From Archaeoglobi archaeon JdFR-42 (GTDB lineage Archaea; Halobacteriota; Archaeoglobi; Archaeoglobales; JdFR-42): 32,533 nucleotides of DNA. The position numbers and the translations under genes are program-made. The notes below the pieces were generated by a model. The model saw only the letters and a program-made list of their open reading frames with translations. It was not told where the DNA came from and searched no databases. Of this stretch, positions 8,364 to 30,858 are shown piece by piece (positions within the stretch are counted from its first letter, which is position 1; each line of letters begins with the position of its first letter). The DNA lies in contig MTND01000028.1 of NCBI GenBank assembly GCA_002010305.1, positions 1 to 32,533 of the forward strand, in the 5' to 3' direction.

Positions 8364-8378
8364 CACAATTACCACCTC

Positions 8379-9278
8379 TCAGAATACGACCGGGGGATAT
8401 ATACCCACTCTCAACATCAAGAATCTGAGCAGAAAATCTCCGATAAGCTCCGAAATGGCCAGTCCTACGAGGATAAAGCCAAGTCTTGCCTGGGTGAAGC
8501 TCAAAGCCATAATTAGAGTTATTACCAAGCCAATAATCACCACTCCTACAATGAATGGGACAGAATATTCCTCTTTTAGCAGCATCATCACTGATTTTCT
8601 CGCAGTTACATTGGAGTAATACTGAGTGTAGAGATATACGGCTATAACCAGAAAGTTAATTATTATCAACCAGAGTTCAAGCCTCTCTACTATCTGTATA
8701 ATGGTATTGCTAAAAGAACTGCCATACATCATAACCAGTGTCAATGTAGCTCCACCAAGAAGAGAGTAGGATAGGAACAGCACTGGAAGAAGAGTGGTGT
8801 TCCAGAAAGGCAAAGCGGGAGAATAGGACATTACAAATCCATCATAAATCATTACCACAACGGCCGCAAGCAATGAGATTCCAAGAATTGCCTGTCCTCC
8901 TGAAGAAGCCTGATCAATAGGCACCCATGAAAAGGCATCAAAACTAGGTGCAATATATAACGCCCCGAAAATGGCAAAAATCACCATGGCATATAAACCT
9001 CTACTTATCCATGATGTAGATGGTTTTGCAAATATCCTCCAGAATCGCTCAGGCCGCCCGAGATAAAGTAGATGGGCTGCAGTTTTCCCCACCAGCACTA
9101 CAAGAAGTCCTACCAGTGCACCACTCATATAGTTGTTGAGAGCAGAGACCACATACATACCAGCACCAATCTCTCCCATGAAAAAAGCAGCAGCAATCAG
9201 CCATTTCCATTCAGTTTGAGCCCTGAAACCCACAACAAATTCCTTTCTTTCATCCACAAATGGCAATACCATATTCAT
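8379..9278 (-). CDS. NrfD/PsrC-type membrane subunit of the molybdoenzyme complex
   Basis: 299 residues with eight hydrophobic segments (roughly 22-45, 52-72, 92-112, 127-150, 155-180, 195-220, 238-262 and 265-290). The segment HLLYLGRPERFWRIFAKP with the following SWISRG is the typical NrfD-family loop. This subunit anchors the complex and exchanges electrons with quinone in PsrC and NrfD; some relatives move protons. No haem-ligand pattern was noticed. It starts four bases after the ferredoxin subunit ends, with GGAGTGAGGGG just before it; the ATG at 9272 is an alternative start. Its stop at 8379-8381 lies 15 bases from the catalytic subunit's ATG. Confidence 0.88.
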   Translation of the reverse strand: MNMVLPFVDERKEFVVGFRAQTEWKWLIAAAFFMGEIGAGMYVVSALNNYMSGALVGLLVVLVGKTAAHLLYLGRPERFWRIFAKPSTSWISRGLYAMVIFAIFGALYIAPSFDAFSWVPIDQASSGGQAILGISLLAAVVVMIYDGFVMSYSPALPFWNTTLLPVLFLSYSLLGGATLTLVMMYGSSFSNTIIQIVERLELWLIIINFLVIAVYLYTQYYSNVTARKSVMMLLKEEYSVPFIVGVVIIGLVITLIMALSFTQARLGFILVGLAISELIGDFLLRFLMLRVGIYPPVVF

Positions 9279-9282
9279 CCCC

Positions 9283-9903
9283 TCACTCCAGATAGAATAT
9301 GGAAGGATCAGTTCCTGCTTCAGGAATTGGTTGTTTTCCGTGTCTCTGTCTTATAAGCTTCTGAACCTCACTCTCCGGATCTTCTAGGTCTCCAAATTTC
9401 CTTGCATCTGCAGGACACGTTCTTACGCAGGCAGGATCTCTCCCTTCCTCTATTCTGTCATAACAAAAGTCGCATTTTGCTACAACTCCTCCTTTCCCAC
9501 CCGGAAATTCCTCTCGCTTGAGTTTTTCAGGAGGGGTTACTACGTCGGGAAAATATCCCTCCTCTATGAAATTTCGGTCCAGATAGAATCTGTTGTTATA
9601 TGGGCATGCCACATAACATGCTCTACAACCGATACACTTGGTTTGGTCCACGATAACAATACCATCATCTCTTTGCTCTGATGCTCCAGTCGGGCATACC
9701 CTGACACAGGGAGGTTCACTGCAGTGGTTGCATTGCACCGGAATGAAAATTCGAGAGACATTGGGATATTCTCCATCCTCGTGAATTAAAACCCTTGTAA
9801 AAAAAACACCGGGTGGAGTCTGGTTTTTAGCTTTACAGGCAGCAGTGCAGGCGTTACAGCCCACACACCTTTTCAAATCTATTGTCATACCCCATCGTAC
9901 CAT
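9283..9903 (-). CDS. Four-cluster ferredoxin (DmsB/PsrB-like) electron-transfer subunit
   Basis: 206 residues from ATG 9903, with 16 cysteines in the family arrangement: CVGCNACTAAC at residues 13-23, then CNHCSEPPCVRVC, CIGCRACYVAC and CDFCYDRIEEGRDPACVRTC. These would hold four 4Fe-4S clusters wiring the catalytic subunit to the NrfD protein. The open frame extends 32 codons further up, but that part has no family resemblance and overlaps the promoter; AGGGGG about nine bases before ATG 9903 supports the shorter form. No signal peptide. It is the first gene of the leftward operon and is divergent from the 2-oxoacid oxidoreductase operon. Confidence 0.9.
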   Translation of the reverse strand: MVRWGMTIDLKRCVGCNACTAACKAKNQTPPGVFFTRVLIHEDGEYPNVSRIFIPVQCNHCSEPPCVRVCPTGASEQRDDGIVIVDQTKCIGCRACYVACPYNNRFYLDRNFIEEGYFPDVVTPPEKLKREEFPGGKGGVVAKCDFCYDRIEEGRDPACVRTCPADARKFGDLEDPESEVQKLIRQRHGKQPIPEAGTDPSIFYLE

Positions 9904-9965
9904 TTTTATGTTCCCCCTGAACCAAAATTCTTTCATCACATTGTTAATGATAGTTAGCGATAGTA

Positions 9966-9975
9966 ATTTATACGC
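9966..9975 (-). promoter_or_regulatory. Probable TATA box of the molybdoenzyme operon
   Basis: Reads CGTATAAATT on the minus strand, about 63 bases before ATG 9903, giving a leader of about 40 bases that includes the AGGGGG ribosome site. Confidence 0.45.
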
Positions 9976-9994
9976 ATTGATAAATACATTATTA

Positions 9995-10034
9995 CGCAAA
10001 TTTGCGCAATTATTTTTTTATCTGTGCGTACACA
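9995..10034. promoter_or_regulatory. Candidate operator cluster B between two divergent operons
   Basis: Contains the perfect 12-base palindrome CGCAAATTTGCG (9995-10006), overlapping TTGCGCAA (10002-10009), and the imperfect palindrome TGTGCGTACACA (10023-10034). The first differs by one base from 4725-4736 and the last resembles TGTGCGCACA at 4721-4730. CG-containing palindromes stand out against the AT-rich spacer. It is placed to control both the molybdoenzyme operon and the oxidoreductase-hydantoinase operon. Confidence 0.5.
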
Positions 10035-10099
10035 TAGAAGATATGAACATGAATTATCCTTATGAATTTAGATAAAAAGTGTTGGTTGAGGGAATAGCT

Positions 10100-10666
10100 A
10101 TGATTGAGATACGAATTCATGGAAGAGGAGGTCAGGGAGCCGTGATGGCCTCAAAAATTCTGGTATCGGCAGCAGTACTGGAAGGCAAACATGGGAGCGC
10201 AATTCCAGATTTTACCTTTGAACGGAGAGGCGCCCCTGTCAAAGCTTTTGTAAAAATAGACGACCAGTATATACGGGAAAAAACTCAGGTGTATACTCCT
10301 GAGTTTCTGATCGTTCTCGACCCTAGCATCAAAACGGCTGTTGATTACTACGAAGGAATAGCTGATAACTGTACTCTCGTGATTAACTATCCAAAACTTC
10401 CTGGAGACGTTCCAGAGAAAGTAAAAACCATCGGCTATGTGGATGCAAACAAAATCACTATTCCTTTGTTCGGGATGCCCATGGTAAATACCTGTATGCT
10501 CGGCGCTTTTGCAAAAGTTACTGGTCTGATATCCCTTGACTCTATAAAACACGGAATTTCTGAGATAATGGAAGGTATGAAAGATGAAATGCTGGAAAAG
10601 AACATTCATGCAGCTGAAGTAGGTTACAAAGAAGCTGTTATAGTTGAATATAAAGGAAGGGATTGA
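10100..10666 (+). CDS. porG: 2-oxoacid:ferredoxin oxidoreductase, gamma subunit
   Basis: 188 residues from ATG 10100. It starts MIEIRIHGRGGQGAVMAS, the typical gamma-subunit N-terminus of pyruvate/2-ketoisovalerate ferredoxin oxidoreductases, followed by FERRGAPVKAFVKI. The open frame reaches a GTG at 10079, but GAGGGA about eight bases before the ATG and family alignment favour 10100. The enzyme oxidatively decarboxylates a 2-oxoacid to an acyl-CoA and CO2 and reduces ferredoxin in the cytoplasm. First gene of a tight gamma-delta-alpha-beta operon. Whether the acid is pyruvate, a branched-chain acid or another one cannot be told. Confidence 0.9.
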   Translation: MIEIRIHGRGGQGAVMASKILVSAAVLEGKHGSAIPDFTFERRGAPVKAFVKIDDQYIREKTQVYTPEFLIVLDPSIKTAVDYYEGIADNCTLVINYPKLPGDVPEKVKTIGYVDANKITIPLFGMPMVNTCMLGAFAKVTGLISLDSIKHGISEIMEGMKDEMLEKNIHAAEVGYKEAVIVEYKGRD

Positions 10667-10667
10667 A

Positions 10668-10931
10668 ATGGAGGAGTACCTTGATTGGATCGCCCCCATA
10701 GGAAAGGATCTCTACGTTATCCGGACTGGAGAGTGGAGATACCAAAAACCAGAGAGAGATCATGAAAAATGCAAGAAATGTGGTACCTGCCTCATATTCT
10801 GTCCTACTGGGTCCATATATGTGGAGGACGAGCGATATGAAACCGACTATGAATACTGCAAAGGATGTGGAATTTGTGCTAGAGAATGCAGAGCTGATGC
10901 GATTATAATGGTAGAGGAGGTCAGGGAATGA
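10668..10931 (+). CDS. porD: 2-oxoacid:ferredoxin oxidoreductase, delta (ferredoxin) subunit
   Basis: 87 residues with two full 4Fe-4S sites, CKKCGTCLIFCP and CKGCGICARECR, as in delta subunits that pass electrons to external ferredoxin. The ATG at 10668 follows the gamma stop by one base; an in-frame TTG at 10644 lies inside the gamma gene and is less likely. GGAAGGG about six bases upstream is a reasonable ribosome site. Its stop overlaps the alpha start (ATGA). Confidence 0.92.
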   Translation: MEEYLDWIAPIGKDLYVIRTGEWRYQKPERDHEKCKKCGTCLIFCPTGSIYVEDERYETDYEYCKGCGICARECRADAIIMVEEVRE

Positions 10932-12130
10932 TTAAGGTCGTTGATGGGAATCAGGCGGCGGCTTTTGGAGCCAAACTTTCAAAACCGGATGTAATTGCTG
11001 CATACCCTATAACTCCTCAAACCCCTCTTGTGGAATATGTGGCAACCATGGTGGCCAGAGGGGAACTTGATGCAGAAATGGTGGAGGTGGAATCAGAGCA
11101 TTCAGCTCTGAGCGTTCTCCATGGTGCAGCTCTGGCGGGAGCGAGAACTTTTACAGCCACATCGAGTCAAGGTCTCTCCCTCATGTATGAACCCTATTTT
11201 AGAACGTCTACTCTAAGACTACCAGTAGTGATGTGTATTGTCACCAGAGAAATGATATCACCTCAGTCCGTATGGGGTGGACAGCAAGATGCAGTAACTG
11301 TCAGAGATGCGGGATGGATTCAGTTATATGTAGAGAATAATCAGGAAGTGCTGGATACTGTTATTCAGGCCTACAGGTTGGCCGAAGATAAGAAAGTAAT
11401 GCTACCAGTTAATGTATGCCTGGATGGCTTTTACCTCTCCCATATGGCAGAAAAAGTGGAGATTCCAGAGCAGGATGATGTGGATCGTTTTCTACCCCCT
11501 CTGAAAATGGATTACATTAAGCTTGACCCAAAAGAACCCATATCTGTAGACCCACTAACCCCTGGTGGATTGCTCACCCACTACAGAAAAAAGCATATGG
11601 AAGGTCTTGAAAATGCCAAAGAAGTTTTTGAGGCTGTGGATCGAGATTTTGGTGAGATTTTTGGGAGATATTATCATGGGAAGATTGAACCATACAGGAT
11701 GGACGATGCTGAAATCGCTCTGGTTACTATGGGTAGCATGAGTGGAACAGCCAGAGTGATGGTGGATAAGGCAAGAGAAAGAGGTGTAAAGGTGGGCTTT
11801 CTTAAACTCAAGATGTTCAGACCTTTCCCGAAAGAAGAGTTCAGAGAACTCCTTGAGGGGATTGATGTGGTTGGAGTAATTGATCGAAATGTTTCTTTTG
11901 GTTTTTCTTCAGGAACAGTATTTTATGAACTCAAATCTGCTCTTATGGGACATCACGAACCACTGATGGCCAGTTTCATAGCTGGACTGGGAGGAATGGA
12001 CATAACTAAAGGACATGTGGGGACAGTAATAAGGTTCTTGGAAAAAATTCAACAGACCAAACGAGTTGAAAAAGAAGTAATATGGATGGATTTGGAGGAA
12101 GAAATATGGGAGAAACCATTGACAAGATAA
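10928..12130 (+). CDS. porA: 2-oxoacid:ferredoxin oxidoreductase, alpha subunit
   Basis: 400 residues, the usual alpha-subunit size. It has the N-terminal YPITPQTPLVEYVA motif and VESEHSALSVLHGAALAGAR, which shape the substrate and thiamine diphosphate site, and TSSQGLSLMYE. A C-terminal transketolase-like domain follows (EIALVTMGSMSGTARVMVDKAR). It starts four bases before the delta stop and overlaps the frame of beta, so translation is coupled. Family resemblance is to pyruvate- and ketoisovalerate-type enzymes, not to the fused two-subunit class. Confidence 0.93.
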   Translation: MIKVVDGNQAAAFGAKLSKPDVIAAYPITPQTPLVEYVATMVARGELDAEMVEVESEHSALSVLHGAALAGARTFTATSSQGLSLMYEPYFRTSTLRLPVVMCIVTREMISPQSVWGGQQDAVTVRDAGWIQLYVENNQEVLDTVIQAYRLAEDKKVMLPVNVCLDGFYLSHMAEKVEIPEQDDVDRFLPPLKMDYIKLDPKEPISVDPLTPGGLLTHYRKKHMEGLENAKEVFEAVDRDFGEIFGRYYHGKIEPYRMDDAEIALVTMGSMSGTARVMVDKARERGVKVGFLKLKMFRPFPKEEFRELLEGIDVVGVIDRNVSFGFSSGTVFYELKSALMGHHEPLMASFIAGLGGMDITKGHVGTVIRFLEKIQQTKRVEKEVIWMDLEEEIWEKPLTR

Positions 12131-13056
12131 AATGGTTGTTAACAGATAAATATGCCAACAAAGCCCTTGAAGAAGAGATCCGTGATATAGAAGACCTACT
12201 ATCTCCAGGCGTTTCAACATGCCTGGGATGTGGTGCTGAGGTAGGTCTGAGAATAGCGTTAAAGATCTTTGGTAAAAACACCATCCTAGCCATACCCCCT
12301 GGATGTATGGGTGGTGTAGGTGTGGTAGGTTATGGCCTTACAACAGGTGCGAAAGTTCCAGTGTTTTTTCCCTTACTGGACAATATAGCCTCCATGCTGG
12401 CGGGTATCAAAAGGCAGTTCAATAGAAAGGGCGAGAAAGTGTATGTCCTTGCGTACGCAGGAGATGGTGGCACAGCAGATGTTGGTTTTCAGTGTCTTTC
12501 CGGAGCCGCGGAAAGAGACGAGAACATTATTTACATCTGCTATGACAATGAAGGGTACATGAATACTGGGATTCAGAGGAGTGGCACGACACCCTATAAA
12601 GCATGGACTACCACGACTCCAGTAGGAGAATCAAGACGTGGGAAACCTCAGGTTAGCAAGAATATGCCCCTGATTATGGCCATGCATGAAGTTCCATATG
12701 TAGCAACGGCCAGCATAGCGTATTTAGAAGATTATGCGACGAAACTGAAAAAAGCTGCAAAGGTTGAAGATGGTCTATCATATATACACCTTTTCACACC
12801 ATGTCCCACTGGATGGAGGTTTTCCACAGATAAAACCATTGAAATATCCCGACTGGCAGTTGAAACCAATTTTTTCCCTCTATGGGAAGCAAAATATGGA
12901 AAAATTAGATTTACCAAGAAAATATGGTTCAAAAAGCCGGTGAAAGAGTATTTGAAGGTAGTTGGAAAGTATTCACATTTAACAGAAGAAGAAATAGAAG
13001 AAATACAGAAACTTGTAGATGAAAGGTATGATATGTTAAAATCCCTTGCGAGGTGA
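12106..13056 (+). CDS. porB: 2-oxoacid:ferredoxin oxidoreductase, beta (thiamine diphosphate) subunit
   Basis: 316 residues from ATG 12106. Cysteines C39 and C42 (TCLGCGAE), C67 (PPGCMG) and a later one in FTPCPTGW fit the four ligands of the beta-subunit 4Fe-4S cluster. The thiamine diphosphate motif GDGGTADVG...YDNEGYMNTG is intact, and YMNTGIQRSG is characteristic of pyruvate/ketoisovalerate-type beta subunits. The open frame begins at 12082, but GGAGGAAG directly before ATG 12106 favours that start, which lies inside the 3' end of the alpha gene. The hydantoinase gene follows after six bases. Confidence 0.93.
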   Translation: MGETIDKIKWLLTDKYANKALEEEIRDIEDLLSPGVSTCLGCGAEVGLRIALKIFGKNTILAIPPGCMGGVGVVGYGLTTGAKVPVFFPLLDNIASMLAGIKRQFNRKGEKVYVLAYAGDGGTADVGFQCLSGAAERDENIIYICYDNEGYMNTGIQRSGTTPYKAWTTTTPVGESRRGKPQVSKNMPLIMAMHEVPYVATASIAYLEDYATKLKKAAKVEDGLSYIHLFTPCPTGWRFSTDKTIEISRLAVETNFFPLWEAKYGKIRFTKKIWFKKPVKEYLKVVGKYSHLTEEEIEEIQKLVDERYDMLKSLAR

Positions 13057-13062
13057 GGTGGT

Positions 13063-14415
13063 ATGGATCTTGTAATAGAAAACGGAAAAGTTGTAATCCC
13101 GGGTGTCGGAGTTGTTCAGGCTAACATTGGAATCGAGAATGGAAAAATCGTGGAAATAGCCAGAATTACTGGAAATGCGGATCAGAAAGTGGATGCAGGA
13201 GGGAAGTATGTAATCCCGGGTGTTATAGATCCTCATATACACCTGGGCATTTTTGCTCCTTTTGAGAAGGAATGTGAATTTGAGACTAAATCTGCTTTGG
13301 CTGGAGGCGTCACAACAGTAGGATGCTTTTACGGAGGGCCAGACTCATACAAGGAAGTTTTTGATCAGGTTGTTAAAACGGCTGAGTCCTATATTTATAC
13401 AGACATTTTTTTCCATCTTGTCATAGGAACTGATCAGCAAATTGAAGAAATGGAACAGTATGCCAGAGATCTTGGAGTAACATCCTTCAAATTTTACATG
13501 TGTGGAATTCCGGGGATTATCGAACCCGTTAACGATGGGTTCCTCCTTAAAGCTTTCAGAAAAATCGCAGACATGGGATATCCAGCCATAGGCTGTGTTC
13601 ATGCAGAGAACGCTGCTCTAGTAGATTTGGCCCTTGAAGAATTACGCAAGGCCAAAGAAAATGGAACTCTTGAGGATTGGGCCGAAAGCCATCCCAATTA
13701 TGCAGAGGAAGAGGCTGTCACCAGAATTTCTTTTATAGCTGGCCTGGCTGGAGCAAGGTTGTATGTAGTTCATCTATCCACAAAGGAGGGAGTAATGGCT
13801 GCAGAAATGGCCAAAAGTAAATATGATAACATCTTCGTGGAGACTACCTCTCCTTACCTGTCCATTACAAAGTTTGATGATATTGGCCTTATGGGGTTGA
13901 TGGTACCCCCTTTCAGGGAAAATGAGAGTGTTGAGGCATTATGGGATTGTGTCAGGAGAGGTATAATTGACTCTTTTGGTACAGATAATGTATCTATGAC
14001 ACGAGAGGTTAAGAATGCCGAACAAGGAATGTGGAATACTATGCCGGGTTATCCATTTCTTGGAACACATTTGCCTGTGTTGCTTCATGAAGGTTTTCAT
14101 AGAAGAAATATTGAGCTTACCGCTTTGGTGGAAAAGGCTACAAGAGATCCTGCCAGGATATTTGGCCTTTATCCCAACAAGGGCACCATCGCGGTTGGTT
14201 CTGACGCAGATCTGGTTATTGTAGATTTGGATAAGGAACGGAAAGTAAATCATGAGGAACTTCATTCCTATTCTGACTTCTCTTTGTTGGACGGGAGAAT
14301 TCTCAAGGGATGGCCAGTGATGACCATTAAAAGTGGGGAAATAGCTGTGGAAGACAATCAGGTCTTAGTTAAGAAAGGGAATGGCAAGTATTTGCGGAGA
14401 AATTTAAGGGAATAA
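13063..14415 (+). CDS. Hydantoinase/dihydropyrimidinase-type cyclic amidohydrolase
   Basis: 450 residues, standard size. All binuclear-zinc ligands of the family are visible: H58 and H60 (DPHIHLG), K143 to be carboxylated (SFKFYM), H180 (VHAEN), H237 (VVHLST) and D308 (GTDN). The C-terminal IAVGSDADLVIVDLD strand is typical of amidohydrolases. These enzymes hydrolyse a cyclic amide bond in hydantoins, dihydropyrimidines, dihydroorotate or allantoin. Asn follows the metal Asp where many relatives have His, so specificity may differ. It sits six bases behind the 2-oxoacid oxidoreductase beta gene with GAGGTGG as ribosome site, so it is the fifth gene of that operon. This, with the nearby permeases and hyuA, points to cyclic ureide or imide breakdown. 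Confidence 0.9.
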   Translation: MDLVIENGKVVIPGVGVVQANIGIENGKIVEIARITGNADQKVDAGGKYVIPGVIDPHIHLGIFAPFEKECEFETKSALAGGVTTVGCFYGGPDSYKEVFDQVVKTAESYIYTDIFFHLVIGTDQQIEEMEQYARDLGVTSFKFYMCGIPGIIEPVNDGFLLKAFRKIADMGYPAIGCVHAENAALVDLALEELRKAKENGTLEDWAESHPNYAEEEAVTRISFIAGLAGARLYVVHLSTKEGVMAAEMAKSKYDNIFVETTSPYLSITKFDDIGLMGLMVPPFRENESVEALWDCVRRGIIDSFGTDNVSMTREVKNAEQGMWNTMPGYPFLGTHLPVLLHEGFHRRNIELTALVEKATRDPARIFGLYPNKGTIAVGSDADLVIVDLDKERKVNHEELHSYSDFSLLDGRILKGWPVMTIKSGEIAVEDNQVLVKKGNGKYLRRNLRE

Positions 14416-15807: not shown

Positions 15808-16563
15808 ATGAAAATTATACTGCTGGGTACTGGAGATGCCACTGGCACCCCCAAAATTGGATGTCGCTGTAAAACCTGTATGAATGCTAGGGAAGAAGGC
15901 TGGCAAAGGACACGTTTCTCCATTCTTGTTCAGAACCGAGGCAAAAACATCCTGATTGATACCAGCCCGGATATGAGATATCAACTCTTATCAGCTGGAG
16001 TTGGCAAAGTTGATGCTGTTATATGGACCCACGGTCATTATGATCATTTTGCCGGATTTGGAGATTTTTACCGTGTCCAAAAGGGTGTAAAAGTCTATAG
16101 TGTTAGCGAGGTACTTCATTATATTAACGGGTTTCTGTATTTTATGAGCTATAAACCTGTTGAAAAGGAAGCATATAAACCCTTTCAGCTTTTTGGGCTT
16201 AACATAACTCTGTTCGATGTAAATCATCCACCTCTTGAGCGGTCATTGGGGCTTTCAATTCAAAACGAGCATACTAAAGTGGTAATTACCGGTGATACTA
16301 ATACTGCAATCCCTGAAAAAAGTCTGGAAATTATGAAGAATGCAGATCTAATGATTGTGGATGCTATAGCCCCAGAGGGATTCAACCTTAAAAAACACAT
16401 GAACGCTGGGGAAGCATATAGGCTGGCAAAGTCCCTCAATGCCAGAAAAGTTGTGTTCTCCCATCTGAGTCATTTTTATCCACCACATTATGAAGCTGCT
16501 GCTGTATATCCAGTGGGAAAAGACATGCAGGAGTTCATTTTCGATGAAGATAATAGGGATTGA
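15808..16563 (+). CDS. PhnP-like metallo-beta-lactamase-fold hydrolase
   Basis: 251 residues. C19, C21 and C24 (CRCKTC) match the structural zinc site seen in PhnP, and H75, H77, D79, H80 (HGHYDH), the Asp of TGDTN and the His of FSHLSH make the binuclear metal site. PhnP cleaves cyclic phosphodiesters; other relatives act on RNA or cofactors. It follows the ATPase gene by 15 bases with AGGGTG as ribosome site and overlaps mfnF by 20 bases. The overlap suggests co-expression with methanofuran synthesis, but no role there is known to me. Confidence 0.85.
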   Translation: MKIILLGTGDATGTPKIGCRCKTCMNAREEGWQRTRFSILVQNRGKNILIDTSPDMRYQLLSAGVGKVDAVIWTHGHYDHFAGFGDFYRVQKGVKVYSVSEVLHYINGFLYFMSYKPVEKEAYKPFQLFGLNITLFDVNHPPLERSLGLSIQNEHTKVVITGDTNTAIPEKSLEIMKNADLMIVDAIAPEGFNLKKHMNAGEAYRLAKSLNARKVVFSHLSHFYPPHYEAAAVYPVGKDMQEFIFDEDNRD

Positions 16564-17509
16564 TATTGGTGGGGCTAATACCAAAGCCTGTGATAGTGAT
16601 GGAAATACCCTTATAGAATATTCCCCTTTATGGAAGGGGGATGAAATATACGGAATTTTTGAGAAAATACGAAAAAAATTCGTTCCTGATACAGTTGGAG
16701 TTGTAATAACCGGTGAGCTATCAGATCGATTTGCCAGCAAGGAAGAGGGAATTCTTGAGATAGCTAGGTGGGTTAAGAGAGTTTTTAATAATCCTATGTT
16801 TATGGATATTTATGGTGATTTTCATGAAAATGTCAATCCTCCAATGAATTTTGCCGCTGCTAATTTTGTAGCGAGTGCAAAATTCTTAGCTCTAGAGTAT
16901 CCTGATGCTATATTGGTAGATATGGGCTCAACCACCACGGATATAATTCCAGTAGTAGGTGGTAAAATTGTAGCGGGAAAGAGTGATTTTGATCGATTGA
17001 AAAAAGGGGAATTAATATACTTTGGAATACTACGGACTAGCCTTTCTTGGGTTCTTCCAGAGGTACATCTGAGAAATAGTCATACTATCCCAACCTCTCC
17101 GGAGTATTTTTCCATTATGGCTGATGCCTTCCTTTCTTTGGGCAGGATTGACGAAAAAGAGTATATTTGTGAGACTCCAGATGGGAGAGGAAAAACAAGA
17201 GAAGACTGTTTGAGGAGGATAGCCCGGGTTGTGTGCAGTGACCTTGATGAGATTGGAGAAGATGTTGCCATTGAAATTGCTAGGCAAGCTGAACAACAGA
17301 TGGAGAACACTCTAGTGAAAGCTTTAACCAAAATGACTAATCAATACAACCTCAATACCGTTATTGGAATGGGTATAGGTGAGTTTCTGATAGAAAAAGT
17401 TGTAGAGACAGCCAATTTAAGATACATCTCAATGGCGAGACGATATGGAAGAGAAGTCTCAAAAGTATTCCCCGCTTTTGCAGTAGCAAAACTGATTGAG
17501 GCTTTATAA
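16544..17509 (+). CDS. mfnF: Methanofuran biosynthesis protein MfnF (hydantoinase/oxoprolinase-like)
   Basis: 321 residues from ATG 16544. It opens MKIIGIDIGGANTKACDSDG and later has VDMGSTTTDIIPVV, the two phosphate loops of an ASKHA fold in the form typical of the MJ0815/MfnF group. MfnF joins the furan diphosphate F1-PP to gamma-glutamyltyramine, giving the APMF-Glu core of methanofuran. The open frame extends to 16490 inside the upstream gene, but IGIDIGG near the N-terminus, CAGGAG upstream and family size support 16544. Its stop overlaps the mfnE start (TAATG). The adjacent mfnE makes this assignment stronger than fold alone. Confidence 0.88.
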   Translation: MKIIGIDIGGANTKACDSDGNTLIEYSPLWKGDEIYGIFEKIRKKFVPDTVGVVITGELSDRFASKEEGILEIARWVKRVFNNPMFMDIYGDFHENVNPPMNFAAANFVASAKFLALEYPDAILVDMGSTTTDIIPVVGGKIVAGKSDFDRLKKGELIYFGILRTSLSWVLPEVHLRNSHTIPTSPEYFSIMADAFLSLGRIDEKEYICETPDGRGKTREDCLRRIARVVCSDLDEIGEDVAIEIARQAEQQMENTLVKALTKMTNQYNLNTVIGMGIGEFLIEKVVETANLRYISMARRYGREVSKVFPAFAVAKLIEAL

Positions 17510-18123
17510 TGAGATGGGTGATCAAGATTGGTGGAAGTGTGATGCACAACGCTTCCACAATTATGGATGCTCTTTCAGAACTGAAAGAAGAGGAAGAAGA
17601 AATACTGATAATACCAGGAGGAGGTATCTTTTCAGATCTGGTAGGAATGGTATATGAAGTGTATGGGCTTGACGAAGAAACAGGCCACTGGATGGCTATT
17701 CTTGCCATGGATCAGTACGGCTATTTTCTTGCCAGAAATAAATACAAAACAACCTATGAAATCGATTTTAAGAAAGGGCTAACAGTCCTTTTACCCTATC
17801 GATTGTTGCGTGAGACGGATCCATTACCTAGGAACTGGAATACCACTTCTGATGCCATTGCGGCCTGGATATCTTACAAGTATGAGGCCAGATTCGTCAA
17901 GGTGACAGATGTGGATGGGATAATTTTTGAAGGTACTCTTTTACCTGTGGTCAGTGCTAAAGATCTTATAGGGAAAAAAACGTGCCTTGATCCCCTTACC
18001 CCTGAGATACTGGTTAACACTGGACTGGATTGTTTTGTTGTCAATGGAAACCATGAGAAAAGAGTAAAAGATTATATATTAGGTAAGAAGGTATTAGGAA
18101 CTCTCGTAAGAGGAGGTCGATAA
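17509..18123 (+). CDS. mfnE: Methanofuran biosynthesis kinase MfnE (amino acid kinase family)
   Basis: 204 residues of the amino acid kinase (aspartokinase/uridylate kinase) fold: VIKIGGSVM at the N-terminus, IIPGGGIFSD for phosphate binding, TTSDAIAAW, and KVTDVDGI near the nucleotide site. MfnE phosphorylates the aminomethylfuran phosphate to its diphosphate, the substrate of MfnF. It starts on the last base of the mfnF stop codon, so the two are translationally coupled, as expected for consecutive steps. GGAGGT near its 3' end serves the next gene. Confidence 0.9.
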   Translation: MRWVIKIGGSVMHNASTIMDALSELKEEEEEILIIPGGGIFSDLVGMVYEVYGLDEETGHWMAILAMDQYGYFLARNKYKTTYEIDFKKGLTVLLPYRLLRETDPLPRNWNTTSDAIAAWISYKYEARFVKVTDVDGIIFEGTLLPVVSAKDLIGKKTCLDPLTPEILVNTGLDCFVVNGNHEKRVKDYILGKKVLGTLVRGGR

Positions 18124-19266: not shown

Positions 19267-20700
19267 TTAAGAATGAAGAAATCGATACCATGGTTTATCA
19301 GACAATCCAGACAGATCTGAATATATATGCTTGGTCCTGCTATATCTTTTAATGAATTCCTCGATCATTCCAATTGGATGCATGTCTTTCATATCATCCT
19401 TGAAAATATATGGGTAGAATAGGGGTATGTGGTCGTTAATCAAGATTACAGGAGCCTTCAACACAGGAGCAAGAGAAATACCTTTTCTCGTATCTCTGGT
19501 CCATATTGATATAGACACAGATGGTCTGTAAGCGGGCTCTATAGAATCTATGTCTTCGTACTCCATACAATACACTACTGGCCCCATGAGATCTTCTTTA
19601 GGTAATGCCGTATCTTCAGTTATCATCAGTAGTGTGGGCTCAAGGAAATAACCATGCTGGCAGTTTTTCTTGTTAGGCCTCTTACCTCCTGTGACCAGTT
19701 TGGCCCCATTTTCTATGGCTGAAGCAATCTGTAGTTTTAGACTCTCATAAATATCTTCGCGGGCTATTGGCCCCAATTCAGTTTCAAGATCTAGGGGATC
19801 GCCAACAACCAGAGTACGGGATCTCTCCACAAAATTATCCATGAACTCATCAAAAATACTGCTTTGGACATATATTCTTTTGACAGAACACGGACTCTGA
19901 CCAGTGTTAAAAAAGCTTGCATATATCGCTCCTTTAATCGCTTCAGATATGTTAGCATCATCGAGAATTATCATGGTGCTGTTATCATATTTCTTTTCAT
20001 TCCTGTCCCTTGGATATAGAATCCCCTGAATTAACAGATCCACTCTGGAGTTTTGATTCAGGATGGCTCCAGAGTCTTTTCCAGTTACTATATTAATCAC
20101 TCCGGGGGGTAGATTAGCCCTTTCAAAGATCTTTGCCATTGCAAGAGCAGTCAGAGGAGCATGCCATGGTGGAATAACGACAGCAGTGTTACCCATCCCA
20201 ATGGCCACTGCAGTATGGAGAGCAAAGTTTAGAAGAGGGGCATCCCAAGGTATTATAATTCCGGCAACTCCTACTGGCTCTCTTAAACAAACCTCTATAA
20301 TGTTCTCTGTTATCAGAGTTCCACTCATCCGGTCAGTACATTTATCAGCGAGATATCTAAACAGGTTGGATGCCAGAGGTACATCGAAGTCAAGAGCTCT
20401 CTTTAACGGAGTTCCATGGTCCATGGCCTCAAGTTCAGCAAGAATCTCTCCATATTCATCGATCAATTCAGCCATTCTTATCAAAAACGACCGTCTTTCA
20501 CGACTTGCCAGGGAACTCCAGGTACCAAATGCATCTGCTGCAGCATCTACAGCAGCTTTAACATCCTCTTCATTTCCTGAAGGCACCACACCGATGGACT
20601 CTCCTGTACCTGGATGGATGATTTCCTCTGTCCTGTCTGAGTGAGAATCAACCCACATGCCATTGATAAACATGCCATATCTCATAAATTTCCCTTCCAT
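19267..20700 (-). CDS. Aldehyde dehydrogenase homologue lacking the catalytic residues
   Basis: 477 residues and uninterrupted, with clear ALDH-superfamily framework: GMWVDSHSDRTEEIIHPGTGE, EDVKAAVDAAADAF, PVGVAGIIIPWDAPL, LPPGVINIVTG, GDPLDLETELGPI and HGYFLEPTLL. Yet the key residues are changed. The PWN Asn is D153; the cofactor-binding KP Lys is P177; about 15 residues containing the ELGG general-base Glu are deleted between I224 and D247; the catalytic Cys after GQ is P270, with Cys one place late (GQSPCS); and the EEIFGPV Glu is Asp (EDLMGPV). I infer a non-catalytic or repurposed protein. CAGGAGG five bases before ATG 20700 fixes the start. It stands alone, divergent from the KaiC-like gene. 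Confidence 0.85.
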   Translation of the reverse strand: MEGKFMRYGMFINGMWVDSHSDRTEEIIHPGTGESIGVVPSGNEEDVKAAVDAAADAFGTWSSLASRERRSFLIRMAELIDEYGEILAELEAMDHGTPLKRALDFDVPLASNLFRYLADKCTDRMSGTLITENIIEVCLREPVGVAGIIIPWDAPLLNFALHTAVAIGMGNTAVVIPPWHAPLTALAMAKIFERANLPPGVINIVTGKDSGAILNQNSRVDLLIQGILYPRDRNEKKYDNSTMIILDDANISEAIKGAIYASFFNTGQSPCSVKRIYVQSSIFDEFMDNFVERSRTLVVGDPLDLETELGPIAREDIYESLKLQIASAIENGAKLVTGGKRPNKKNCQHGYFLEPTLLMITEDTALPKEDLMGPVVYCMEYEDIDSIEPAYRPSVSISIWTRDTRKGISLAPVLKAPVILINDHIPLFYPYIFKDDMKDMHPIGMIEEFIKRYSRTKHIYSDLSGLSDKPWYRFLHS

Positions 20701-20948
20701 GAAACCTCCTGATAGGGTATAAACGGGTCATCGCCCGGAATATTAACGTATTAACATTAGTGACATCTAGTCATCTACTGTAAGTACAACAGTCTAATTA
20801 GATTGGCAACATACCTGAAATCCCCCCAATTTATAATTTCTTGTTTATAATCAATACTATTTAACACTATCGGCATACTCAGTTGAGAGGGAAAAATTAT
20901 TGAATTAAAGTATCAAAAATGAAAAATTTCTACTTTAAACCCGAAAAA

Positions 20949-22724: not shown

Positions 22725-23906
22725 TTGTATCAGATCGGGGAAGCTCTTATTGGAGAAGGGGATGAACTGGCCCATATTGATCTAATTATAGGTCGAAAGG
22801 ATAGTCCTGCAGGAATTGCTTTTGCCAACGCTTTATCGCAGTTATCATGGGGTCACACGCCGTTGCTGGCCGTAGTTAGACCCAATCTCATGACAAAGCC
22901 CGCCACTGTCATCATTCCCAAAGTGACTGTTAAGAATATGGAACAGGCTGGGTTGATTTTTGGTCCAGCTCAGGCTGCAGTAGCCAAAGCGGTGGCAGAT
23001 GCAGTTGAGGAAGGGATAATCCCTAAAGATGAAGTTGAGGACTATGTTGTTATTGTAAGTGTGTTCATACATCCTGAAGCAAAAGATAAAGATAAGGTCT
23101 ACCATTACAATTATGGTGCAACCAAGCTTGCCCTTCAGAGAGCTATGGATAACTTTCCGGATGTGGATACCCTGCTATATGAGAAAGACAGGGCAGGTCA
23201 TCCTATGATAGGGAAGAAACTGATCAATTTATGGGATCCACCATATCTCCAGGTAGCCTTGGATTTCCCCGATCTTAAAAAGACGTTGGAAGTTGTTGCT
23301 GCCTTGCCTGAGAATGATCATTTAATTCTTGAGGCAGGAACACCCCTGATAAAAAGATATGGAGTTGAAGTTATCCATAAATTGAGGGAAATCAGGCATG
23401 AAGCCTTCATCGTGGCTGATCTGAAAACCCTCGATACAGGTAACCTTGAGGCGAGAATGGCTGCTGATGCAACGGCCAATGCCGTTGTTATCTCTGGACT
23501 GGCTCCCAGAACAACCATTGATAAGGCCATAAAAGAGGCAAAGAAAACGGGAATATATTCCATTGTGGATATGCTCAACGTTCCTGACCCCTATAAGAGA
23601 TTGGCATCCTTTGAGCTGAAACCTGATGTGGTGGAAATACATAGAGCCATCGATATGGAAGGACATATGGACCAAGCATGGAATACTGTGAAAGAGATCA
23701 AGGAAAATGTTGAGAACATTCTGGTGGCTGTGGCAGGTGGGATTCGCCCTGAAAATGTCATGGAAGCTATACAGGCTGGTGCTGACATACTGGTAGTTGG
23801 CAGAGCCATCACCAATGCCAGAGACGTTGAAGGGGCAGCAAGACAATTTCTGAAGGCTATGAGAAAAGAAGATGTGGATCAGTTCAGAATCATGACGGAC
23901 TTTTGA
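22725..23906 (+). CDS. fae-hps: Fused formaldehyde-activating enzyme / 3-hexulose-6-phosphate synthase
   Basis: 393 residues in two domains. Residues 1-165 are Fae, with the catalytic H17 in ELAHIDLIIG and KPATVIIPKVTV; Fae condenses formaldehyde with tetrahydromethanopterin. Residues 175-393 are hexulose-6-phosphate synthase (LQVALDF, FIVADLKTLDTGN, VAVAGGIRPENV), an aldolase joining formaldehyde and ribulose 5-phosphate. The fusion is known from Archaea, where it mainly makes pentose phosphates by running Hps backward and trapping the formaldehyde. The start codon is TTG, set by GAGGTG five bases upstream. The triosephosphate isomerase gene follows after ten bases. The organism should have tetrahydromethanopterin, in line with the methanofuran genes. 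Confidence 0.95.
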   Translation: MYQIGEALIGEGDELAHIDLIIGRKDSPAGIAFANALSQLSWGHTPLLAVVRPNLMTKPATVIIPKVTVKNMEQAGLIFGPAQAAVAKAVADAVEEGIIPKDEVEDYVVIVSVFIHPEAKDKDKVYHYNYGATKLALQRAMDNFPDVDTLLYEKDRAGHPMIGKKLINLWDPPYLQVALDFPDLKKTLEVVAALPENDHLILEAGTPLIKRYGVEVIHKLREIRHEAFIVADLKTLDTGNLEARMAADATANAVVISGLAPRTTIDKAIKEAKKTGIYSIVDMLNVPDPYKRLASFELKPDVVEIHRAIDMEGHMDQAWNTVKEIKENVENILVAVAGGIRPENVMEAIQAGADILVVGRAITNARDVEGAARQFLKAMRKEDVDQFRIMTDF

Positions 23907-23916
23907 AGGTGATGGG

Positions 23917-24573
23917 GTGGATCAACCCGTTGTGATTGTGAACTTCAAAGCTTATTCAGAGGGTATAAAGAAAGGGGAGGAAATAGCCCGAGCTGCCAGA
24001 GAAATAAACGAAAATGGAGAAGTATTTGTTGCCATAGCTCCAGATTTTATTCAACTGAAATCTCTGGTAGAATTCGCTCCAGTATTTGCTCAGCACACAG
24101 ATGCAGTTAATCCAGGAAGCAATACGGGGAGGATAACTCCAGAAATGGTGAAGGCCTCTGGTGCAACAGGTAGTTTAATCAATCATTCTGAAAGACCTTT
24201 AATCCTTTCTGATATTGAGTTTCTTATTAGTGCATTCAGGGAATTAGAGTTAACTTCGGTGGTATGTACCAACAATATCCCTGTTTCCAAGGCAGTGGCA
24301 GCTCTAACTCCTGATTTCATTGCTATTGAGCCTCCTGAATTAATTGGCACGGGTATACCTGTTTCGAAGGCGGATCCCGGTATTGTGGAAGGAGCAGTGA
24401 AGGCTGTACAGAAAGTAGATGGAAATATTATGGTATTATGTGGAGCCGGAATAAGTGAATATGAAGATTTTGTTGCCGCTCTCGATCTGGGAGCTAAAGG
24501 AGTCCTTCTTGCATCCGGTGTTGTTAAGGCAAAAAACCCAGGGATGAAACTAAAAGAACTGGTCGGAATTTAA
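23917..24573 (+). CDS. tpiA: Triosephosphate isomerase, archaeal type
   Basis: 218 residues, the shortened archaeal form. Catalytic residues are present: K11 (VNFKAY), H90 (INHSER) and E138 (AIEPPELIGTG), and the phosphate loop is CGAGISEYEDF. It interconverts dihydroxyacetone phosphate and glyceraldehyde 3-phosphate. The start is GTG 23917, with GAAGGTGATG in front of it. It sits ten bases behind fae-hps, so both are likely on one transcript. Its last 24 bases overlap the end of the convergent Mut7-C gene. Confidence 0.95.
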   Translation: MDQPVVIVNFKAYSEGIKKGEEIARAAREINENGEVFVAIAPDFIQLKSLVEFAPVFAQHTDAVNPGSNTGRITPEMVKASGATGSLINHSERPLILSDIEFLISAFRELELTSVVCTNNIPVSKAVAALTPDFIAIEPPELIGTGIPVSKADPGIVEGAVKAVQKVDGNIMVLCGAGISEYEDFVAALDLGAKGVLLASGVVKAKNPGMKLKELVGI

Positions 24574-27018: not shown

Positions 27019-27489
27019 ATGTATCGGATAGACATCAATGTTAATGGAGAGGCTCATACTCTAGATGTCCCCTCCAATGCTACTTTACTTGAAGTGCTGA
27101 GGGATAATCTAGGATTAAAAGGTGTTAAGGAAGGATGTGGAAAAGGAGAATGTGGTGCATGCACAGTTTTGATCAATGGAATTCCCGTTAATGCCTGTTT
27201 AATTCTTGCAGTGGATGTTGATGGGATGGAAATAACCACCATAGAAGGTCTGGCTAGGGGGGATGAGCTTAATCCGATTCAGGAGTCGTTTATAGAACAT
27301 GGAGCTGTGCAATGTGGTTTTTGCACCCCTGGAATGATAATGTCCGCAAAACACCTCCTTGACAATAACTCAAGACCAACTGTGGATGAGATTAAAGAGG
27401 CAATTTCTGGGAATTTATGTCGTTGTACAGGATATGTGCGGATTATAAAGGCCATTGAGGCCGCATCGGAAAGATACTCTTTCAGGTGA
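27019..27489 (+). CDS. Molybdenum hydroxylase, 2Fe-2S (small) subunit
   Basis: 156 residues, standard CoxS/XdhC/HcrC length. The plant-ferredoxin-like cluster has C40, C45, C48 and C60 (GCGKGECGACTVL...NAC) and the second cluster has C99, C102, C134 and C136 (QCGFCTPGM, NLCRCTGY). It passes electrons from the molybdenum centre towards FAD. First gene of a tight operon with the large and FAD subunits and a CoA ligase. Family members include xanthine, CO, nicotinate and 4-hydroxybenzoyl-CoA enzymes. Confidence 0.93.
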   Translation: MYRIDINVNGEAHTLDVPSNATLLEVLRDNLGLKGVKEGCGKGECGACTVLINGIPVNACLILAVDVDGMEITTIEGLARGDELNPIQESFIEHGAVQCGFCTPGMIMSAKHLLDNNSRPTVDEIKEAISGNLCRCTGYVRIIKAIEAASERYSFR

Positions 27490-27493
27490 TGTA

Positions 27494-29887
27494 ATGCAGG
27501 AAACTGTAACAAAAGAAAAGGAAGAATATGTCTATGTAGGAAAAGGCGTTCCGAGGGTAGATGGCTATAAAAAAGTAACCGGAAAAGCTGTCTATACAGT
27601 GGATGTGGATCTCCCTGGTATGCTTCATGGAAAAATTCTAAGAAGTCCAGTACCTCATGCCCTGATCAAAAGTATAGACACCTCCAGGGCTGAAGCTCTT
27701 CCCGGAGTGAAAGCAGTGATAACAGGGAAGGATACACAGGGTATCAGGTTTGGTTTTGTTGAAACTCCTCATATGCCAGCAGATATGCCCCCTCTTGCTG
27801 AGGATAAGGTAAGATATGTGGGAGAAGCCGTTGCAGCAGTCGCTGCCACCTCTGAACGAATCGCTGTAAAGGCCCTTGATTTAATAGAGGTTGAATACAA
27901 ACCTTTACCGGCAGTATTTCATCCAGAGAAAGCAATGGAACCGGAAGCCCCTAAAATCCATGATATTATTCCAGCAACTGGCCCGTCTTTCTGGCAACAA
28001 TGGGGAGTTGAAAGAGAAAGCACACCACAGAAGGTGGAGAGGAATATATGCAGTGAAATACATGTGGAAATTGGAGATATTGAGGAGGGATTTGCAAAAG
28101 CAGATTATATCAGGGAAGACAGGTTTGAGACTAATGTTACCGCTCATGGAGCTCTTGAACCTCATGGAGTCGTGGCAAGATACACCAGGGATAAGCTGGA
28201 TGTTTGGCTCTCTCATATGGGGCCATATATGAAACGATACTGGCTTGCTCGCACTATGGGTTTGCCTGATAGCAAAGTAAGGGTACATCATGCCTATATC
28301 GGTGGGGCTTTTGGGGGAAAAATAGACCTGTTCGACTATGAGTTTATTGCAAGCTATTTATCAAAAATAACTGGGAGACCTGTTAGGATAGTTCTCACTC
28401 GAAAGGAAGTGTTTCAATCAACTAGGTTGCGTCATCCCATGGTGTTTTATGTCAAGACGGGTGTAAAGAGGAATGGAAAGATAACCGCTTTAGATGTCAC
28501 GGCTATTGACGACACAGGAGCTTATAGAGGTACTGGCCCTGTTGTTGTTTATCTTGCTCACGCTTTCTCAATACCCCTTTACAGAATTCCAAATGTCAAT
28601 TATAAGGGTTATGCAGTATATACTAACAATCCGGTTAGAGTTGCTATGAGGGGGCATGGAGCTCCACAAGCGAGATTTGCCATGGAGCAGCAACTGGATA
28701 TGATCGCTGAGGATATTGGCATGAGCCCAATTGACATCAGGCTCATAAACGTTAGAGAACAGGGTGAGGTGCTACCCAATGGAGACATCCTCAACAGTTG
28801 CGGTTTGAGAGAATGCATAGAGAGATCGGCCGAAAGAAGCGATTTTATGAAAAAATACGGTAAAAACAGAGGTAAGGGAAGAGGTATAGGGATTGGTTTA
28901 ACGAGCATGTTCAGTGGGGCTCAGTTTTATCCATTCGGTGCCACGGGGGTTGTACTTCTCCATGATGATGGGAGTGCGACCATTTTTTCAGGTGCAGTGG
29001 AGTTCGGCCAAGGTTCAGATACTATGATGTGTCAGATCGTGGCAGAAGAGCTTGGAATCGATATAGGTAAGGTAAGCATTTTGTCGGCTGATTCTGAGCT
29101 GTGTCCTATAGCCTTGGATAACTGGCTAAGTGGGGGTACATTCGTTAATGGAAGGGCGGTTCAGCTTGCTGCAAGAAATGCAAAAGAACAGTTACTGAGC
29201 TATGCGTCCCAGATACTTGGAGTTTCAAAAGAAGAACTTGATGTCAGAGATGGGGAGATATTTTCTGTCAAAGATCCATCTAAGAAAATATCCCATGAGG
29301 GAGTAATAAAATATGCCATTCATAAAAGCAGGGGTAAACAGATAGTAGGAGTGGGACATGCAACTCCTGTAGAGGGAGCATACTGGTATCCGAGCCTAAG
29401 AACAGGTAAAGGGAAATTCACAGGAGCATATTCTTTCTCTGCCAGTGTAGCAGAAGTAGAGGTGGATATGGACACAGGAGTTGTTAGGGTATTGAAAATC
29501 ATTAATGCTCACGACTGTGGATATCCCATCAATCCTATACTAGTTGAGGGACAGGCTGAAGGACAGGGTTATATGGGCATGGCCCAGGTATTGATGGAAA
29601 ACATTGTGGAACACGATGGTGTTATTTTAAACTCTGATTTTCTGGAATATAAGATGCCCACTGCCCTTGATATACCAGAAATGGAAACCATACATATTGA
29701 GACTCGTGATCCAAATGGTCCATTTGGTGGAAAGGAAGTGGGAGAGGGTGTAATTGCGGGAGTAGTAGCAGCAATAGCTAACGCGATATATGACGCTACA
29801 GGTGTACGATTTCATACCCTACCTATAACTCCAGATGTCATACTGAAGGGATTGAAGGAGAAACGGATGAAGGAGGAGAGACAGTGA
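27494..29887 (+). CDS. Molybdenum hydroxylase, molybdopterin-binding (large) subunit
   Basis: 797 residues from ATG 27494, four bases after the small-subunit stop and with CAGGTG upstream; the open frame extends back to 27455 inside the previous gene. It starts with the a/b hammerhead pattern (VGKGVPRVDGYKKVTGKAVY) and has GGAFGGK (about 270-276), RGHGAPQARFAMEQ and VEFGQGSD of the cofactor-binding region. Near the C-terminus, GGKEVGEGVIAG supplies the conserved Glu that activates hydroxylation or, in 4-hydroxybenzoyl-CoA reductase, its counterpart region. The usual RGFG/RGPG is RGHG here. The reaction is hydroxylation of an aromatic or N-heterocyclic carbon, or reductive dehydroxylation. Confidence 0.92.
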   Translation: MQETVTKEKEEYVYVGKGVPRVDGYKKVTGKAVYTVDVDLPGMLHGKILRSPVPHALIKSIDTSRAEALPGVKAVITGKDTQGIRFGFVETPHMPADMPPLAEDKVRYVGEAVAAVAATSERIAVKALDLIEVEYKPLPAVFHPEKAMEPEAPKIHDIIPATGPSFWQQWGVERESTPQKVERNICSEIHVEIGDIEEGFAKADYIREDRFETNVTAHGALEPHGVVARYTRDKLDVWLSHMGPYMKRYWLARTMGLPDSKVRVHHAYIGGAFGGKIDLFDYEFIASYLSKITGRPVRIVLTRKEVFQSTRLRHPMVFYVKTGVKRNGKITALDVTAIDDTGAYRGTGPVVVYLAHAFSIPLYRIPNVNYKGYAVYTNNPVRVAMRGHGAPQARFAMEQQLDMIAEDIGMSPIDIRLINVREQGEVLPNGDILNSCGLRECIERSAERSDFMKKYGKNRGKGRGIGIGLTSMFSGAQFYPFGATGVVLLHDDGSATIFSGAVEFGQGSDTMMCQIVAEELGIDIGKVSILSADSELCPIALDNWLSGGTFVNGRAVQLAARNAKEQLLSYASQILGVSKEELDVRDGEIFSVKDPSKKISHEGVIKYAIHKSRGKQIVGVGHATPVEGAYWYPSLRTGKGKFTGAYSFSASVAEVEVDMDTGVVRVLKIINAHDCGYPINPILVEGQAEGQGYMGMAQVLMENIVEHDGVILNSDFLEYKMPTALDIPEMETIHIETRDPNGPFGGKEVGEGVIAGVVAAIANAIYDATGVRFHTLPITPDVILKGLKEKRMKEERQ

Positions 29888-30858
29888 TAATACCTGGGGA
29901 ATTTGAATATGTTAGTCCCTCCAGTATTTCAGAAGCATCTCGAGAGATAATAGAAAGAGATGCTGTAGTGTTTGCTGGTGGAACTGATCTGGTACCAATG
30001 TTCAAAGAAAAGCTTGTTACTCCTAAAGTGGTGGTCAATCTAAAGAAAATACCAGGAATGGATGGCATCTCCTTTGATAAGGCATACATGTCCATTGGAG
30101 CTCTTACTACTCTAGCATCTCTCGCAACTCATCCTTCCATTCTCGAGAAATGTCCAAGTATAGGCAAGGCAGCAAAGTCTATTGCCTCACCTCAAATACG
30201 AAATGTTGGAACAGTGGGTGGAAACCTTTGTCAAAATCTCAGGTGTCCGTATTTCCGTCAAGATTTTCCATGTCACAAGCGTGGAGGAAAGAAGTGTTTT
30301 GCAGTTGGAGGAGACAATTACCTTCATTCCATATTTGGAGCAAAAAGATGTTTTGCTGTGAACCCCTCAGATCTCGCTACCATATTAGTCGCCTACGATT
30401 CAAAAGTAATCCTTGAAAGTAAGGAAGGAGTACGAGAAATATTTCTTGAAGATTTTTATCTTGGTCCAGGAGAATTTGACATTGAGAAAGGAGAAATTCT
30501 GAAAGAGGTTGTTGTATCTTCTGAAAACATGGACAATACTCTGGATGCTTTTCTGAAATTCCGAATCAGACAGTCCATAGATTTTGCTCTAGTCAATGTA
30601 GGTGTTGTTTTAAAAATCCAGAATGGACTGGTGGAGAAAGCATCAGTGGTTCTGGGTGCAGTGGCAGGCACGCCATATCGAGCAGTGGAGAGTGAAAAGG
30701 CTCTGACAGGAAACGAGCTCACCAAAGAGCTGATAGAGGAGGCAGCTCATAAAGCAGTTGAAAAGGCTAAACCTCTTTCAAAAAACGAATACAAGGTTGA
30801 TGTGGCAAGAATCCTGATTAAAAGAGCTCTTGAGGAAATAATGGAGAGAACGTTATGA
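29884..30858 (+). CDS. Molybdenum hydroxylase, FAD-binding subunit with a cysteine-rich insertion
   Basis: 324 residues. FAD-binding motifs are AGGTDLVPMFK near residue 32 and RNVGTVGGNLCQ near 107-117. Following the second motif is an insertion with C116, C121, C130, C138 and C156, reminiscent of the segment that holds an extra 4Fe-4S cluster in the beta subunit of 4-hydroxybenzoyl-CoA reductase, and of similar insertions in some other anaerobic members. The length also fits that subunit. It starts with GTG overlapping the large-subunit stop, with AAGGAGGAG upstream, and its own stop overlaps the ligase start, so all four genes are coupled. Confidence 0.9.
   Translation: MIIPGEFEYVSPSSISEASREIIERDAVVFAGGTDLVPMFKEKLVTPKVVVNLKKIPGMDGISFDKAYMSIGALTTLASLATHPSILEKCPSIGKAAKSIASPQIRNVGTVGGNLCQNLRCPYFRQDFPCHKRGGKKCFAVGGDNYLHSIFGAKRCFAVNPSDLATILVAYDSKVILESKEGVREIFLEDFYLGPGEFDIEKGEILKEVVVSSENMDNTLDAFLKFRIRQSIDFALVNVGVVLKIQNGLVEKASVVLGAVAGTPYRAVESEKALTGNELTKELIEEAAHKAVEKAKPLSKNEYKVDVARILIKRALEEIMERTL

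Follow-up and report, generated by a model that had tools for sequence, protein, structure and literature searches.

An archaeal aldehyde dehydrogenase homologue that has lost its catalytic triad and cofactor site is probably a pseudoenzyme

ALDH16A1, a protein of about 800 residues that occurs in animals, carries a second, C-terminal domain resembling aldehyde dehydrogenase (ALDH). The human protein has an ALDH fold without any residue of the catalytic triad and is called a pseudoenzyme; a binding function has been proposed for it (PMC10650815, PMC8160307). In GRM1 bacterial microcompartment loci with two AldDHs, Ser or Pro takes the place of the nucleophile Cys in one of the pair, which could serve as a scaffold or regulator (PMC4207490). 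In ALDH2, helix alphaG and the Arg475 loop are tied through Glu487, and breaking this tie disorders the NAD site; in apo ALDH2*2, E487K destabilises alphaG and the loop that faces it (PMC8160307). The ALDH pseudoenzymes that we found described belong either to animals or to microcompartment loci of bacteria. Here, we describe an archaeal gene that, at a probability we put at roughly three in four, encodes an ALDH pseudoenzyme derived from an aminobutyraldehyde-dehydrogenase-like ancestor, with the fold kept because it is still needed.

The gene lies in the window, by which we mean the whole 32,533-nucleotide stretch analysed, from Archaeoglobi archaeon JdFR-42 (contig MTND01000028.1). Its 477-residue product has PF00171 (Aldedh) as its sole Pfam match, which covers a single domain and scores 306 bits (E 4.5e-91) against a curated cut-off of 23, placing the protein within the family. 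A search of the PDB matched 237 distinct sequences, with E values down to 2e-63. AlphaFold2 returned a confident ALDH fold (pLDDT 85.8, pTM 0.86) from an input alignment of 26 normal ALDHs, which biases the model towards the normal fold. The pLDDT falls below 50 at residues 227-235, the remnant of helix alphaG, and at residues 428-444, the one-time PFGG loop, while the remaining helices and strands, including the C-terminal strand, are modelled mostly at good confidence. Using Foldseek, the model matches ALDHs of the PDB with a TM score of ~0.86, and several apo ALDH2*2 chains (PDB 1zum) are among the best structural matches. A well-kept fold framework had been claimed from the DNA letters in the initial annotation, and the model (pLDDT 86; TM 0.86 to solved ALDHs) and the retention of 45 of 68 conserved columns bear this out.

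Table 1 Features of the ALDH homologue gene and the corresponding positions in the window.
Feature	Residues	Window positions	Strand	Description
ALDH homologue gene		19267..20700	minus	477 codons; ATG at 20700, stop 19269-19267; single open frame
Shine-Dalgarno AGGAGG		20705..20710	minus	strong; 4 nt upstream of the ATG
PWD	151-153	20242..20250	minus	oxyanion Asn169 to Asp153
IPPWH	176-180	20161..20175	minus	cofactor Lys192 to Ile176; the invariant Pro after it is kept as Pro177
FTGSxxxG/alphaG and LELGG	222-240	19981..20037	minus	deletions of 8 residues (FTGSxxxG/helix alphaG) and of 5 residues (LELGG loop, including Glu268)
GQSPCS	267-272	19885..19902	minus	nucleophile Cys302 to Pro270; Cys271 aligns with Cys303
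KEDLMGPV	368-375	19576..19599	minus	Glu399 to Asp370, Phe401 to Met372
ANxxxYGL region	386-395	19516..19545	minus	motif lost with a 2-3 residue deletion
PFGGxKxSGxGRE region	425-445	19366..19428	minus	anchor-loop motif lost, length kept
C-terminal strand and tail	453-477	19270..19344	minus	oligomerisation strand and tail TKHIYSDLSG...KPWY, common to L096/L097

The functional residues were checked in alignments with 14 archaeal ALDHs, with a wider set of 38 sequences and with 37 relatives including the closest ones. The replacement of the catalytic Asn of PWN by Asp, of the nucleophile Cys by Pro270 with a Cys one place further on, and of the Glu of EEIFGPV by Asp, all proposed in the initial annotation, are upheld by these alignments. 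The cofactor Lys is also lost as proposed, but its replacement is not Pro177: Lys192 aligns with Ile176, and Pro177 is the invariant Pro that follows the Lys. Similarly, the general-base Glu is indeed deleted, but not with about 15 residues; the deletion consists of two separate in-frame gaps of 8 and 5 residues (13 residues), the first taking out FTGSxxxG and part of helix alphaG and the second taking out LELGG, so that Glu268 is absent. Beyond the changes proposed at the outset, the protein also lacks the GxGxxxG (GPG) turn, FTGS/alphaG, Phe401, AN..YGL and PFGGxKxSG, and a conserved Gly at query position 417 is replaced by Pro. At the positions of the triad (Cys302, Glu268, Asn169) the protein thus has Pro270, a deletion and Asp153, and at those of the NAD(P) site (Lys192, FTGS/alphaG, Glu399, Phe401) it has Ile176, a deletion, Asp370 and Met372. 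With the whole triad, the cofactor Lys and the NAD-binding helix gone, ALDH chemistry is not expected, and we infer from the sequence that the protein would be unable to oxidise aldehydes via a thiohemiacetal or to bind NAD in the ALDH manner.

The cysteine adjoining the old nucleophile position, the presence of Asp in place of both Asn169 and Glu399, and the predicted persistence of the fold framework might together point to a repurposed enzyme, performing new chemistry in the old substrate pocket via, e.g., Cys271, Asp153 or Asp370. However, Cys271, whose possible occupation of the nucleophile position had been marked for checking, aligns without gaps with Cys303 and not with Cys302, deletions have removed the general base along with part of the cofactor site, and the anchor loop is predicted at low confidence. 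With Cys271 at the Cys303 position and no general base left, the protein is unlikely to retain simple ALDH chemistry, and we consider a repurposed enzyme very improbable.

Orthologues were sought at increasing taxonomic distance. None was found in the family (2 genomes), the order (57) or the class (59), nor in a 393-genome sample of the phylum and three further classes, 991 genomes in total across overlapping searches; the absence of an orthologue sharing the changes among these 991 genomes is counted against the pseudoenzyme reading. A peptide-based scan of 84,980 species, a method that needs near-exact 8-residue matches, found no orthologue either. A scan of viral contigs for an FN-x-GQ-x-PC-type motif, a pattern that does match the window, gave a single match, which is not an ALDH, and among the matches listed in plasmid and phage searches there are generic ALDHs only, at ~29-34% identity. 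The gene is flanked by a metallo-beta-lactamase-fold hydrolase and a KaiC-like ATPase, both on the opposite strand. In the family's second genome, transporter genes come after the metallo-beta-lactamase neighbour, with the ALDH absent, and the KaiC-like gene sits near a contig end. We saw no clues to function in the flanking genes or in the methanofuran-type and Fae-Hps genes beyond them, and no microcompartment shell gene was recognised among the window genes examined.

The methanofuran-type genes (16490-18123, plus strand) comprise an MfnF-like biosynthesis gene and an adjoining gene of the amino-acid-kinase family, perhaps MfnE-like. The Fae-Hps gene (22725-23906, plus strand) encodes a bifunctional H4MPT hydro-lyase/hexulose-6-phosphate synthase; the gene after it, at 23917-24573, reads as triosephosphate isomerase. 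At 27019-32438 (plus strand) there is a molybdenum hydroxylase operon of the xanthine dehydrogenase/4-hydroxybenzoyl-CoA reductase type with 2Fe-2S, Mo and FAD subunits, in which the best family of the Mo subunit is TIGR03194 (below cut-off), the FAD subunit has a Cys-rich insert resembling the 4Fe-4S loop of 4-hydroxybenzoyl-CoA reductase, and the subunit genes are followed by that of a benzoate-CoA-ligase-family protein (TIGR02262, above cut-off). Judged from their sequences, this operon and the ligase-family gene suggest anaerobic aromatic metabolism. At 10079-14415 (plus strand) are genes for subunits of a 2-oxoacid:ferredoxin oxidoreductase, nearest to the phenylglyoxylate dehydrogenase PadG/PadI models but below cut-off, followed by a hydantoinase/dihydropyrimidinase-like gene. 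On the minus strand, 5868-9999 encodes a molybdopterin oxidoreductase of the Phs/DMSO-reductase family with a ferredoxin-type and an apparent membrane subunit, the large subunit of which is below all NCBIfam cut-offs.

The best full-length relatives of the homologue, L096 and L097 (257 and 254 bits over residues 6-474, 35-36% identity), come from a different class within the phylum; both retain intact catalytic and cofactor motifs, and a class III aminotransferase adjoins. L096 scores 637 bits with the PRK13473 aminobutyraldehyde dehydrogenase model, above its NCBIfam cut-off of 615, whereas the homologue, at 253 bits, falls below the cut-off. Among 38 sequences, the homologue has its KPWY C-terminal tail in common with L096 and L097 only. 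In the tree, it falls in the same supported 13-row group (95/93) as these two, with its exact place unsure, at the end of a very long terminal branch (2.08 changes per column).

Exactly one other PF00171 gene is present in the genome, L002 (G000:C3), with normal motifs. Given that ALDHs form dimers and tetramers and that the oligomerisation strand is kept, the homologue could conceivably join L002 in a complex as a regulatory or structural subunit. However, L002 is encoded on a separate contig, falls in a different ALDH clade of the tree and is only 28% identical to its supposed partner, and we regard this as the least probable of the readings considered here.

The losses were also compared with those of other family members. 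The homologue has lost 23 of the 68 columns that are at least 90% conserved in 37 relatives, and eight other ALDH rows checked in the same way have lost 0-6 of ~70 conserved columns. In the 75-column set from the 38-sequence alignment, which we divided into catalytic/cofactor and other columns according to what we take to be their roles in human ALDH2, the homologue has lost 14 of 19 catalytic/cofactor columns versus 12 of 56 others (Fisher P = 7e-5). Most of the columns that it keeps belong to the framework and are occupied by Gly, Pro, Asn, Ala or aromatic residues.

A pseudogene in early decay, with catalytic residues lost neutrally and the frame still open since inactivation is recent, would be in keeping with the occurrence of the gene in a single genome with no orthologues found, with its long branch and with the 12 non-catalytic conserved positions lost too; relaxed constraint would also fit the branch length. 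Against early decay, the losses are non-random, the codon bias matches the strength seen in neighbouring genes, and the ribosome-binding site and C-terminal tail are kept. The reading frame, reported as open in the initial annotation, is intact, with zero internal stops and every gap relative to relatives in frame. In a neutral simulation, just 1% of ORFs remained stop-free with 20% of codons replaced, and 0 of 400 with 35% replaced, figures that serve as a guide, not proof, their reading depending on when the losses happened. We therefore consider early decay decidedly unlikely. Both other minus-strand frames are stop-rich across the deletion and the C-terminus, so no compensated frameshift can have produced the altered regions. 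The codon-usage score of 0.096 falls in the strongest third of the window genes (range 0.014-0.110), and this native usage indicates a resident gene with an uneroded coding signal, leading us to reject a recent foreign origin. A 193-codon open frame antisense to the gene (20063-20644, plus strand) is probably spurious, merely shadowing the coding strand. Selection rather than decay, as initially suggested, thus has the indirect support of losses clustered at catalytic/cofactor positions within a kept framework, the codon usage, the lack of stops, the in-frame gaps and the tail; of the roles proposed along with it, a binding or scaffolding one is inferred.

Returning to the pseudoenzyme, our alignments, AlphaFold2 model and Foldseek matches agree that the family fold is kept and the conserved catalytic motifs are lost. 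In the likeliest course of events, an ancestor near the aminobutyraldehyde dehydrogenases (the PRK13473/BADH side of PF00171) would, in an archaeal lineage, have lost both its catalytic triad and its NAD site, while the three-domain fold, with its C-terminal oligomerisation strand and tail, would have been retained because a folded protein was still needed. The two remodelled segments, helix alphaG and the anchor loop (463-478 in ALDH2 numbering), were probably lost together, since ALDHs couple them at the dimer interface, next to the cofactor. As the remodelled segments are the coupled pair of ALDH2, the changes read as a single, coherent loss of the cofactor site. With less certainty than for the loss of ALDH chemistry, the retention of fold and tail suggests that the protein may serve a non-catalytic function, probably as an oligomer, in binding, scaffolding or regulation. 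A more far-reaching proposal, in which the scaffold, stripped of its triad and cofactor-binding helix, has turned into a new protein for ligand binding or regulation, or into a new non-NAD catalyst, confined to an unstudied family of archaea, appears unlikely.

If the pseudoenzyme reading is true, maintenance of an ALDH scaffold does not depend on NAD, and the homologue would offer a clean test protein for the non-enzyme role of that scaffold, although one genome is too little for claiming a family. Compared with the described systems, the protein resembles ALDH16A1 in having an ALDH fold without the triad. Unlike ALDH16A1, it is a one-domain protein of 477 residues from one archaeon, with no second C-terminal ALDH-like domain, and alphaG, ELGG and PFGG are lost too. 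With the second AldDH of GRM1 loci it shares the replacement of the nucleophile Cys, Pro being among the replacements found there. However, the GRM1 protein has an active AldDH as its neighbour in a microcompartment locus, whereas the homologue has no recognised shell genes nearby, the only other ALDH is on another contig and the cofactor site is gone as well. The KPWY tail is common to the homologue and the PRK13473/BADH-type L096 and L097, whose motifs are intact where those of the homologue are lost. Apo ALDH2*2 (1zum) keeps all catalytic residues, in contrast to the homologue, in which segments are deleted or rewritten. The protein thus fits the known kind of ALDH pseudoenzyme, of which it is a single-domain, archaeal and more thoroughly stripped variant.
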